Source: Chloroflexota bacterium (GTDB lineage Bacteria > Chloroflexota > Dormibacteria > CF-121). Taken from it: a stretch of 45,297 nucleotides of DNA. A program made the position numbers and the translations under genes. Positions 8,512-13,565 of this stretch are shown piece after piece. Where the stretch lies: assembly GCA_005882045.1 (NCBI GenBank), contig VBHO01000152.1:1-45297 (forward strand). The letters run 5' to 3'. The notes beneath the pieces were generated by a model that did not search any database, was not told the DNA's origin, and saw nothing but the letters and a program-made list of their open reading frames with translations. Numbering within the stretch: the stretch's first letter is position 1; every line of letters starts with the position of its first letter.

Positions 8512-9296
8512 TGGGCGTCGCTCTTCTTCGGTTCCGCCCGGTCCTTCGGCTGGGCTTCCAACACCTTCCGCTGGTAGTACTGCTGCACGATATCGGCGGC
8601 TTCCTGGATGTCGTCCGTGACGACCATCAGGTCGAGGTCCTCGGCTGAGATCTTGCCCTCAGCCAGCACACGCTCTCGAATCCACTGTTGCAGCCCGGCC
8701 CAGTAGGCCGAGCCGAACATGATCACCGGGAAGTGGACGATTTTCCCCGTTTGAATCAGCGTCAATGCCTCGAACAGCTCGTCCATGGTGCCGAAGCCGC
8801 CCGGGAAGATGACGAAGGCCTCGGCGTACTTGACGAACATCGTTTTGCGCACGAAGAAGTAGTGGAACTCGATGCCGAGGTTCACGTACTCGTTGAGACC
8901 CTGCTCGAACGGCAGTTCGATGTTGAGGCCGACAGAGAGCCCACGACCTTCACGCGCGCCCATATTCGCCGCCTCCATCGTGCCCGGCCCGCCGCCGGTG
9001 ATGATGGCGAAACCCCGGCGGGCAAGCTCGCCGGCAAGGGCGCGCGCGGCATCGTACATCGGATCGGGCGGACGGACGCGGGCCGAGCCAAAGAAGGTAA
9101 CCGCGGGACCGACGGTGGCCAGCGCATCGAATCCGGCCACGAACTCGGCCTGGATGCGCAGCACGCGCCAGGGGTCGCTTTCGAGGAACTCTGGAGCGTT
9201 CTCGGGACGCTCCAGCAGCTGACGGTCTTCGATCTTCCGCTCCACGCCACGCCGGACGATGCCTCCGGTGCGCTGCTCTCCGGGTTCCTTCGCCAT
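8508..9296 (-). CDS. LOG/TIGR00730 family Rossmann-fold protein
   Basis: FFGSARV...IITGGGPGTMEAANMGA...VIFPGGFGTMDELFEALTLIQTGK; start at internal Met. Confidence 0.93.
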   Translation of the reverse strand: MAKEPGEQRTGGIVRRGVERKIEDRQLLERPENAPEFLESDPWRVLRIQAEFVAGFDALATVGPAVTFFGSARVRPPDPMYDAARALAGELARRGFAIITGGGPGTMEAANMGAREGRGLSVGLNIELPFEQGLNEYVNLGIEFHYFFVRKTMFVKYAEAFVIFPGGFGTMDELFEALTLIQTGKIVHFPVIMFGSAYWAGLQQWIRERVLAEGKISAEDLDLMVVTDDIQEAADIVQQYYQRKVLEAQPKDRAEPKKSDAQ

Positions 9297-9345
9297 GGCC
9301 TCGCTTACTCTAACCCGTTGCCTTTTGCGCCAGACTTGTGGCGTG

Positions 9346-10491
9346 ATGAGACGCGACCAACTCGAAGAGATCGTCGTTGCGGTGGCCGCGCTGGTTCTCC
9401 CGGCGGTGCTGACCGCCATCCTGCTGCAGACGCACTCGCCGCAGCGGGAATACGTCTTCATCTATATGGGGGTGGTCGCCGTGATCGCGGTGGCCCGCGG
9501 GCTCTGGCCCGCGCTGCTGGCGGCGGCGGTCAGCTTCTTGCTGGTCGATTACTACTTTGTCCCGCCGATGCACACCCTGACGGTCGCCGATGAACAGGAC
9601 CTCGTCAACCTGGCCATCTTCTTCGGAACGGCGGGCGTCGTCGGCTTCACGGCCGGGCGGCGCCGCCAGGCGCAGATCCGGGCGCAGGCACTCGCCGGGG
9701 AGCTTCGCAACGTGAACGCCGAGCTGGTGCGGCTCAACCGCGACCAGGCCGCCGCTGCCCAGGCGGCCGTCCGGCTGGCGCGGACCGAGCAGCAAGTGCA
9801 GCTGCTGCAGCAGGCGGAGCAGGATCTGCGCGACCTGCTCGCGACCCTCTCCCACGAGCTGCGTACGCCGATCGGCACCATCCTGACCGACAGCACCAAC
9901 ATGCTGCGGACGCAGGACATGAACACCTCGGTCCGCTACCGCATCGAGGGGATCGCCGCCGAGGCGCGCCGACTGAATCGGTTACTGGCCGACATGCTCA
10001 GCCTGGGGCGTATCGAAAGCGGCGCCCTCCACCTGACGCTTGAGCCGGTGCAGGTCGGCGACGCCGTTGCGGCGGCCGCCGAGCGCCTGAAGCGGACGGC
10101 GCCGGATCGCACGGTCACCTGGGACCAAAAGGAAGCCGGCGTTAGCGCGCTGGCCGATTGGGACAGCCTGGGCCAGATTTTTGACAACCTGCTCGACAAC
10201 GCCAATCGCTTCGCGCCTCCCGGAACGCCGATCAGCGTGCGCGTCAGCCAGGAGAATCCGGGCCAGGTCACCATCCGCGTACTCGACCACGGTCCCGGCG
10301 TGCCGGCCGCCATGCGCGACCGGCTGTTCAACCGCTTCGTGAAAGGCCCGTCCGACGATGGTGACGGGTCCGGCCTCGGGCTGGCGATCACCCGCGGACT
10401 GGTGGAGGCACACGCCGGGAGCATCGCGTTGGAAGACGGCGAGCCCGGCGAGACGACGTTTCGCTTTACGATCCCGAAGTCGGAGTCATAG
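9346..10491 (+). CDS. DUF4118 membrane sensor histidine kinase (KdpD C-terminal-half-like)
   Basis: Four-TM DUF4118 region (YVFIYMGVVAVIAVARGLWPALLAAAVSFLLVDYYFVPPMHTLTVAD), LLATLSHELRTPIGTILTDS, HATPase DHGPGVP...GSGLGLAITRGLVEAHAG. Confidence 0.92.
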   Translation: MRRDQLEEIVVAVAALVLPAVLTAILLQTHSPQREYVFIYMGVVAVIAVARGLWPALLAAAVSFLLVDYYFVPPMHTLTVADEQDLVNLAIFFGTAGVVGFTAGRRRQAQIRAQALAGELRNVNAELVRLNRDQAAAAQAAVRLARTEQQVQLLQQAEQDLRDLLATLSHELRTPIGTILTDSTNMLRTQDMNTSVRYRIEGIAAEARRLNRLLADMLSLGRIESGALHLTLEPVQVGDAVAAAAERLKRTAPDRTVTWDQKEAGVSALADWDSLGQIFDNLLDNANRFAPPGTPISVRVSQENPGQVTIRVLDHGPGVPAAMRDRLFNRFVKGPSDDGDGSGLGLAITRGLVEAHAGSIALEDGEPGETTFRFTIPKSES

Positions 10492-12649
10492 CCGCTTTCG
10501 CCGGTGGCACGGGCTGCTCCCGCCGCAGGATGTGCACGTCGATGTCCTCGAGCAAGCGTACCAACGTCGACGTCGTTCGCCACGGCCGCCAACGGTGGTG
10601 CGGGCGCCCCAGCACGACCTCGGTATTGAGCGTTTTGCGCAGGTAGCCGGCGAGCGTCGCCGCCACGTTTCGCCCGTAGAGGCTGACGAACTCGCCCTGG
10701 TCGCGGTGCACCAGGGCGGCGTACTCGCCGAGCCAGCGGCGCTGCGGCTCCGAGAGTCGCGGCGGACGAACGCTGACCACCGTGAACTGGCCGGATGTGC
10801 GCGAGGCGAAGCTTGCCATCCGCTGGATGATCGGCTCCATCCCCGGCCGCGGCGGGATGCAGGCGACCAGGCGCGGTCGGGCTTCCCACGGCTCCTCGAT
10901 CTTGCGCTCGCGCATGTATGCGACCAGGCGGCGGTCGGTGTGCTCGGCGATCAGTCGGAACGCCATCTCCCGCAGGGCCGACAGGATCTGCGGGCGGAAC
11001 TCGGCCTGCAGCGCCCGCGCAGCGTCGGCCGGGGTCATGATCTCGCCCCGGCGCAACCGTTCGAGTAAAACGGCCGGGGTGACGTCGACGATCTCCAGCT
11101 CGTCGATGCGGGTCAAGACATCATCCGACAGGACGGAGCCTGGGGCGCGCTCCTTGAGCAGCGGCGCATAGCTCCCGCGGACGCTGGCCAGGTCGAGCAG
11201 GTGGAGCGTGCCCAGCACCGTGATGCCGGCGTCGACCAGCCTGGCAAGGGACTCAGCCCGGACGCGTCCCTGCGTATCGAGGCCGTTGAGCTCATCGATG
11301 ACCGCCACCTCGGGATTCCGGCTCAGCAACGCCTCGACGTTGAGGCGGTCGTGCGCGGCAGGGGCATCTGGTCCGCCCAGGACTTCGAGGGTGGCCAGCC
11401 CGCTCGCCGGAACCCGCGCATTGATGGCGCCGACGACCACGTCGGCGCCACGCGACCGGCGCCGCCGCGCCTCATCGAGCATGGCGGTGGTCGTGCCCGA
11501 GCCATCGGCGTAACCGAGATAGACCCGGACGTCCGCACTCCGCCGGCCGGCACGCTGCTCAGCACGAAGCAGCTCCTCGGGCAGGCGGCGCTCCGGCCCG
11601 ACGTCGGACGGCGGCGTCACATGCTCAGGGGCGATGACGTGCAGGTCGATGTCCGCGAGCGAATCGACCAGCTGATCAGCCAGCGTTTTGCGCCAGCGAG
11701 ACCACAGACCAGCCTGGCGCGACTCTCCGATGAAAAGGTGGCGCACATTCGCCAGCTGGGCGGCCTCGATGATCCCTTTCGCGATGTCGGACCCGCCGAG
11801 CGACACGAATGAGCAACCCAGCTGGGCCGCGAGCCGCTGATAGCCCTCCATCTTCACGGCCCCGGCGGAGCCGACGATCACGACCATGCACAGCCCACCG
11901 AGGCGCCGGGCCAGCCGAGTGGCGCGGCGGATCAACGGCTCGGATTTGGCCGAGCCAGAAATCGCCACCAGCACGTCCTCAGCCGGGGCCAGCACCGCTC
12001 GCGAGGTTGCCATCGACTGGGCGACCAGTCGCAACGCGATCTCCCGCAGCGCCGCGAGGTTGCCGGGTCGGAAGAAGTTGGCCAGCGCGGTTTCGACCTT
12101 GTCCGGGCCGTAGATGTTGCCGTGCCGCATCCGCTTGCGCAGCGCCTCCGGTGAGATGTCGATGAACTGGATCTCGTCGGCGAGGTCCAGGACCCGGTCG
12201 GGCAAGGTTTCCCGCTGCACGATGCCCGTGATCTTCTCGACGACGTCGTTGACGCTTTCGACATGTTGCACGTTCAGCGTCGAGATGACGTCGATGCCGC
12301 CGTCACGCAGCCGCTCGACATCCTGCCAGCGTTTTTCATTTGTGGAGCCAGGCGCGTTGGTGTGGGCGAGCTCGTCGACCAGCGCGATTTTGGGCCGTCG
12401 CTTGAGCACTGCATCGAGATCCATCTCCTCGAGCACCGTTCCGCGATAGGGGACGCGCTTGCGCGGGATCAGCTCGAGGCCGGCGAGAAGCTCCTCGGTG
12501 CGGGCACGGCCATAGGTCTCGACGTAGGCGATAGCGACGTCCTCGCCGCGCTGCTTTCGCTCACGCGCCTCCCGGAGCATGGAAAACGTCTTGCCGGCGC
12601 CGGGCGTCGCGCCCAGGTAGACCTTGAGACGCCCGCGCGCCGATGCCAC
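10466..12649 (-). CDS. KdpD-type sensor N-terminal domain + USP domain, duplicated in tandem; no TM or kinase domain
   Basis: First half: VYLGATPGAGKTFSMLREARERKQRGEDVAIAYVETYGRARTEELLAGLE...ALVDELAHTNAPGSTNEKRWQDV, USP LVAISGSAKSEPLIRRATRLARRL; second half restarts at about aa 370: VRVYLGYADGSGTTTAMLDEARRRRSRGADVVVG...AVIDELNGLD. Confidence 0.92.
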   Translation of the reverse strand: MASARGRLKVYLGATPGAGKTFSMLREARERKQRGEDVAIAYVETYGRARTEELLAGLELIPRKRVPYRGTVLEEMDLDAVLKRRPKIALVDELAHTNAPGSTNEKRWQDVERLRDGGIDVISTLNVQHVESVNDVVEKITGIVQRETLPDRVLDLADEIQFIDISPEALRKRMRHGNIYGPDKVETALANFFRPGNLAALREIALRLVAQSMATSRAVLAPAEDVLVAISGSAKSEPLIRRATRLARRLGGLCMVVIVGSAGAVKMEGYQRLAAQLGCSFVSLGGSDIAKGIIEAAQLANVRHLFIGESRQAGLWSRWRKTLADQLVDSLADIDLHVIAPEHVTPPSDVGPERRLPEELLRAEQRAGRRSADVRVYLGYADGSGTTTAMLDEARRRRSRGADVVVGAINARVPASGLATLEVLGGPDAPAAHDRLNVEALLSRNPEVAVIDELNGLDTQGRVRAESLARLVDAGITVLGTLHLLDLASVRGSYAPLLKERAPGSVLSDDVLTRIDELEIVDVTPAVLLERLRRGEIMTPADAARALQAEFRPQILSALREMAFRLIAEHTDRRLVAYMRERKIEEPWEARPRLVACIPPRPGMEPIIQRMASFASRTSGQFTVVSVRPPRLSEPQRRWLGEYAALVHRDQGEFVSLYGRNVAATLAGYLRKTLNTEVVLGRPHHRWRPWRTTSTLVRLLEDIDVHILRREQPVPPAKAAMTPTSGS

Positions 12650-12678: not shown

Positions 12679-12807
12679 TTAGCCGGCTTCGCCCGCGTCC
12701 AGGGCCATGTTGAGCGCCAGCACGTTCACGTGCGGTTCGCCGAGGACTCCGAGGATACGACCCTGGAGCAAGCCGAGCATCCAAACATCGAGCGGCACGA
12801 TTTGAGC
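12679..12807 (-). pseudogene. kdpC: Relic of the KdpC C-terminus (about 42 codons)
   Basis: Minus-strand translation after an in-frame TAG: AQIVPLDVWMLGLLQGRILGVLGEPHVNVLALNMALDAGEAG*, matching the KdpC C-terminal signature GRxLGxLGEPxVNVLxLNxALD; not in the supplied ORF track. Confidence 0.75.
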
Positions 12808-12872
12808 CTATGCCCGGCTACGTCAACGCTGCATCAACAATCGCGGCTTGCGCCTACGGACTCTGAGACCGG

Positions 12873-13565
12873 TCAGCGTTTGATCGCCGGGCCGAAGCGA
12901 TAGCCGCGGCCCGGCACCGTCTGGATCACTTCCGGATGCGCCGGATCATGCTCCAGCTTGAGCCGCAACCGCTGGATGAAGACGCGGAGGTAGTGCCGTT
13001 CGTCGCCGTAGGCCGGCCCCCAGACGCGGTGGAGGAGCGTGCGGTAGTCCATCACCTCGTGCTGGTGACGGGCGAGCTCGGCTAACAGGAGATATTCGGT
13101 GGCCGAGAGCCGTACTTCTTGATCGCCGCGTAAGACCGAATGGCTTTGCAGGTCGACGGTGACATCTAGGTCCCGGACGACCAGGGGCTGCTGGGTCGGA
13201 GGTTGGGCACGGCGCAGCACGGCGCGGATGCGGGCCAGCAGCTCGTCCGAGCCGAACGGCTTGGCCAGGTAATCATCTGCTCCCATGTCAAGCGCCCGCA
13301 CCTTGTCCGCCTGGTCGCCGCGGGCGCTGATCATGATCACCGACGGGACCCGCCGACCCTCGAGGCTGGAGAGCACGTGCCAGCCGTCGACGAATGGCAG
13401 TCCGATGTCGAGCAGGACGATGTCGAACGTCTTGGCTCTCAATGCCTGGACGCCGGTGGACCCGTCTGCCGCCTGCTCGACCTCGAAACCGCCCGATTGG
13501 AGCGCTCCGACTAACACGGTCCTCAACGCACGGTCGTCCTCGACGACCAGAATGCGCCCGGCCAC
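12873..13565 (-). CDS. kdpE: OmpR/KdpE-type response regulator
   Basis: RILVVEDDRALRTVLVGALQ...VLLDIGLPFVDGW...GADDYLAKPFGSDELLARIRAVLRR...RVWGPAYGDERHYLRVFIQRLRLKLEHDPAHPEVIQTVPGRGYRF (KdpE-like C-terminus). Confidence 0.88.
   Translation of the reverse strand: MAGRILVVEDDRALRTVLVGALQSGGFEVEQAADGSTGVQALRAKTFDIVLLDIGLPFVDGWHVLSSLEGRRVPSVIMISARGDQADKVRALDMGADDYLAKPFGSDELLARIRAVLRRAQPPTQQPLVVRDLDVTVDLQSHSVLRGDQEVRLSATEYLLLAELARHQHEVMDYRTLLHRVWGPAYGDERHYLRVFIQRLRLKLEHDPAHPEVIQTVPGRGYRFGPAIKR

Follow-up and report, generated by a model that had tools for sequence, protein, structure and literature searches.

Probable deletion of kdpFABC from a Dormibacterota kdp locus, leaving an in-frame kdpC remnant between intact regulator genes

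The KdpE site of Escherichia coli is a direct repeat, TTTATA-N5-TTTACA (PMC3264566). KdpD/Usp chains lacking a histidine-kinase domain have been reported to phosphorylate KdpB (PMC11018627), and in Deinococcus, the KdpD-N and histidine-kinase parts of KdpD are encoded by separate genes (PMC5716572). In the open-licence literature, we found no description of kdpDE without kdpFABC or of kdp in Dormibacterota. Here, we analyzed a 45,297-nt stretch of a Dormibacterota genome (assembly G000; the whole stretch is referred to as the window), in which the regulator genes of a kdp locus are separated by a short remnant of kdpC. The locus is a well-documented gene-loss relic and not a new kind of system.

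The remnant lies between kdpE (12873-13565, minus strand) and a KdpD-domain gene (10466-12649, minus strand). Directly downstream of an in-frame stop, the minus strand at 12807-12679 translates to AQIVPLDVWMLGLLQGRILGVLGEPHVNVLALNMALDAGEAG*, which the first-pass annotation had read as a KdpC C-terminus left behind when a kdpFABC operon was deleted. In the window, QGRILGVLGEPHVNVLALNMALD aligned with positions 159-181/182 of the Pfam KdpC family PF02669 (model length, 182; E 6e-6), and its score of 26.6 bits was above the family cut-off of 24.1 bits; on the E-value scale of the whole-assembly search, the tail scored 22.7 bits (E 1.5e-4), slightly below that cut-off. Several NCBIfam KdpC models also matched the tail (best E, 7e-7), and a tblastn search of the window with residues 182-210 of the intact KdpC of G014, a member of the same genus, gave 83% identity (E 1e-9), 24 of the 28 tail residues being identical. 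When solved structures were searched with the 42-residue segment by phmmer, the matches were at chance level. The family-model and tblastn matches confirmed the KdpC assignment, with a narrower extent than the 42 codons, or the relic of 30-40 kdpC codons, originally proposed: kdpC accounts for the last 28 codons and the stop (12765-12679, minus strand; QGRILGVLGEPHVNVLALNMALDAGEAG*), and the codons in frame ahead of them belong to a different gene. The conserved C-terminal segment of KdpC is present and the remainder is missing, and 12765-12679 is a remnant of KdpC, not a KdpC. Other KdpC matches of 13-18 bits in the window genome and its relatives aligned with different regions of the profile and are probably due to chance.

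The origin of the segment became apparent from G014, in which the genes flanking the site on either side run in the same order, at approximately 82% nucleotide identity. There, a 29-codon micro-ORF, kdpF, kdpA, kdpB, and an intact kdpC fill the interval between kdpE and kdpD, and other Dormibacterota show the same gene order with an intact pump. The two halves of the window segment correspond to the start of the G014 micro-ORF and the end of its kdpC. The first half (12798-12766, minus strand) comprises 11 micro-ORF codons, VPLDVWMLGLL, with a GTG start, and is identical to the G014 micro-ORF at 29 of 33 bases. The junction falls at 12765/12766, and 4,484 bp lie between the equivalent points in G014, covering the rest of the micro-ORF, kdpF, kdpA, kdpB, and most of kdpC. 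Because the gap ends at micro-ORF codon 11 on one side and 28 codons before the kdpC stop on the other, the result is an in-frame chimera of 39 codons, in which VPLDVWMLGLL is followed immediately by QGRILGVLGEPHVNVLALNMALDAGEAG. As read from the sequence, the scar is thus more than a kdpC remnant: it joins the two ends of the deleted stretch in frame.

These data make it very probable that a single in-frame deletion of approximately 4.5 kb in this lineage removed the pump from an ordinary Dormibacterota kdp locus and fused the ends into the chimera. The ancestral locus would have consisted of kdpE, an operator-promoter region, the micro-ORF-kdpF-kdpA-kdpB-kdpC-kdpD series, and a convergent histidine-kinase gene. 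One deletion would have taken out everything from within the micro-ORF to within kdpC, leaving the operator, start codon, kdpC stop, and kdpD spacer in place. The former kdp promoter would then drive kdpD with the 39-codon frame alone in between, and the fused peptide would have no function of its own.

The pump was not found elsewhere in the genome. A KdpA search of the whole assembly returned nothing at E values up to 10, and no KdpC was present besides the tail; TrkH and Kup likewise had no match in the assembly. Since the absence of the pump was judged by KdpA and KdpC searches of a 91%-complete assembly, kdpFABC may lie in unassembled sequence. Of the checks named in the first-pass annotation, the KdpC HMM alignment and the synteny comparison favored its reading, and the check for kdpFABC elsewhere found none, within this completeness. 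The junction is known from one assembled contig of a draft MAG (269 contigs), and no other genome sharing it was found; a contig joining the two ends of an intact locus, with kdpFABC still in the genome, would also produce such a sequence. We consider this artefact highly improbable, given the KdpA and KdpC results and the absence of the cassette at the very same site in ten congeners. Moreover, a mis-join is made less likely by the mid-contig position of the junction and by the two ends having no common repeat on visual inspection.

We then compared this site across the genus. In the ten congeners (G001-G009 and G013), the methyltransferase and LOG-family genes adjoin and the whole cassette is absent, the gap or overlap between the two genes having been read out for most of these genomes. 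The G011 contig stops within the LOG gene, which leaves the site unreadable there, and G010 and G012 gave no LOG match. Tandem KdpD was present in 2 of the 15 genomes of the genus, namely the window genome and G014. The empty congeners include the nearest, G002. Alleles of three kinds, full, partial, and empty, thus occur in the genus, and loss at this site is common in it. In a tree of nine flanking proteins, several inner branches of which had low support, the window genome grouped with the empty G002 (support, 100), and G014 was placed elsewhere. Synonymous divergence between the window genome and G014 was similar in magnitude for the cassette and its flanks. This similarity is compatible with vertical inheritance and several later losses; transfer between relatives may be an alternative.

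Two other KdpC matches were considered. At locus L116 (G023:C126), a KdpC tail (positions 161-181) occurs upstream of a KdpD gene as part of an 81-aa frame and may be a second relic or an assembly error; it is not counted as a second fossil, as the frame continues past the end of a 5.4-kb contig containing repeated stretches and unread (X) bases. The KdpC of G095, located at a contig edge, is truncated by the edge.

Next, we examined the genes that remained. The intact kdpE encodes an OmpR-family response regulator (Response_reg, E 1.3e-27; Trans_reg_C, E 3.4e-21) with 86% amino-acid identity to the G014 KdpE at the same place. The kdpD-type gene encodes 727 aa with two tandem KdpD-N units (PF02702, E 6.5e-133, in two stretches), a Usp match that is weak and below the cut-off, and 85% amino-acid identity to G014. 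Its first unit carries GATPGAGKT (Walker A) and VDELAHTNAPG (Walker B, VDEL), aligned with the KdpD-N structure 2r8r. The gene described earlier as a kdpD-like sensor thus comprises two tandem KdpD-N/Usp units and has no histidine-kinase domain on the chain; the kinase is a separate convergent gene (9259-10491, plus strand) with DUF4118-HisKA-HATPase_c architecture and 85% amino-acid identity to G014. The domain composition of the two genes indicates that this kinase is the other half of a split KdpD. Their 3' ends overlap by 26 bp (10466-10491).

The dN/dS values of kdpE, kdpD, and the histidine-kinase gene against G014 were within the range of neighboring genes. In Tajima-type relative-rate counts with three outgroups, kdpD was not faster in the window genome than in G014, and kdpE and the histidine-kinase gene differed little between the two genomes. 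The regulators are kept as sequence, with intact frames, as had been claimed; their continued use is a separate claim, and the lack of acceleration fits continued use and a young deletion alike.

The region upstream of the scar was also retained. Dormibacterota kdp loci carry a direct repeat, TTGAYG-N5-TTGAYG, approximately 220-230 bp before kdpA, and the window has a predicted KdpE-type operator of this pattern, TTGATG-CAGCG-TTGACG (6+5+6), at 12837-12821 on the minus strand. Among nine further Dormibacterota kdp loci, seven had the predicted operator at the same place with 0-1 mismatch; the G014 copy has 2 mismatches and L015 has no clear copy. The consensus TTGAYGNNNYGTTGAYG was drawn up by eye from these kdp loci, the window copy included, which makes the perfect match in the window partly a matter of construction. 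More informative are the counts across the assembly, namely no other perfect match and 13 one-mismatch copies, as compared with 2 for a reversed-pattern control. A putative -10 element, TAGGCT (12805-12810, minus strand), was read from the sequence 6 nt ahead of the GTG codon; G014 has an identical hexamer at almost the same position. At this spacing, the element would give a near-leaderless message.

One of the 13 one-mismatch boxes lies 28 nt upstream of the start of an APC-type permease gene in the window genome and was chosen after viewing the neighbors of all 13. This raises the possibility, which we regard as doubtful, that the retained regulators are still used and that KdpE acts on other targets such as this gene. 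The permease ortholog of G011 has the same box, and a homologous permease of G001 has a perfect box and, as its neighbors, a KdpE homolog (62.6%) and a DUF4118 histidine kinase; the lack of acceleration in kdpD would agree with continued use. In contrast, the permease resembles amino-acid transporters, the box is short, with the excess of one-mismatch copies given above, and a young deletion by itself would also leave the regulators unaccelerated. In congeners besides G011, the best permease matches were without the box, except for the G001 permease. Furthermore, G011 and G001 yielded no KdpD-family gene, and another regulator may therefore read the box there. The arrangement in G001 (L168; G001:C167) consists of the APC permease with the perfect box upstream, followed by the KdpE homolog and the convergent DUF4118 histidine kinase. 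The APC permease is thus at most a weak lead as a putative KdpE target. A more elaborate proposal, in which the deletion rewired the locus so that the kdp promoter and KdpE operator drive the histidine-kinase-less serine-kinase KdpD almost directly in a self-regulated, pumpless KdpE/kinase circuit, possibly acting on the APC permease instead, appears unlikely.

The micro-ORF that contributed the first half of the scar is hydrophobic, 28-29 codons long, and conserved ahead of kdpF in Dormibacterota kdp loci (G014, L011:5656-5742; L015, L017, L018, and L020-L024). None of the tested micro-ORFs matched a Pfam family or reached an NCBIfam cut-off, and pN was lower than pS in every pairwise comparison made. 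The KdpE-type operator and the leading micro-ORF are thus widespread in Dormibacterota kdp loci.

To estimate the age of the deletion, we compared the tail with other KdpC C-termini; a pattern search of kdp loci gave six distinct tails, including that of the window. Relative to the other five, the F-to-L change in GVLGEP was the sole one looking derived in the window tail. G014 departs at three places, with S, F, and N, from residues that the others share with the window or among themselves. The 28-codon tail is free of stops and frameshifts. One clear derived residue and no stop suggest that the deletion is probably young. The same paucity of changes, together with the retention of the start codon, frame, kdpC stop, and short spacer to kdpD, and a tail pN of 0.124 versus a pS of 0.40 against G014, could be taken to mean that selection maintains the 39-codon frame as a functional small gene, such as a kdpD-coupling leader or a membrane peptide. 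However, the sites are few, most of the divergence from G014 may be older than the deletion, one-third of deletions would be expected to join in frame by chance, and the frame is seen in one genome. We therefore consider a functional gene very unlikely and retain the reading of a fused peptide probably devoid of its own function.

The window presents a transporter loss resolved to the base with the regulators left behind, in a genus with three states at one site. It thereby offers a natural test of the role played after pump loss by a KdpE/KdpD system in which the serine kinase has KdpB as its reported substrate.

Compared with the kdpE-kdpFABC-kdpD locus of Dormibacterota (G014 and L013-L024), the window has the same kdpE, operator, micro-ORF start, tandem KdpD, and separate histidine kinase, and the same flanking genes as G014, but lacks kdpF, kdpA, kdpB, and most of the micro-ORF and kdpC. 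The predicted operator shares the direct-repeat architecture of the E. coli KdpE site (PMC3264566). The kdpD product resembles the KdpD/Usp serine kinase (PMC11018627) in the Walker A/B sequences of its first unit and in having no histidine-kinase domain on the chain; it differs in that KdpB, the substrate reported for such chains, is deleted from the window locus. As in the split KdpD of Deinococcus (PMC5716572), the KdpD-N part and the histidine-kinase part are separate genes, whereas the Deinococcus KdpD-N gene comes after an intact kdpBAC and the window has a tandem fusion of two KdpD-N units and no pump.
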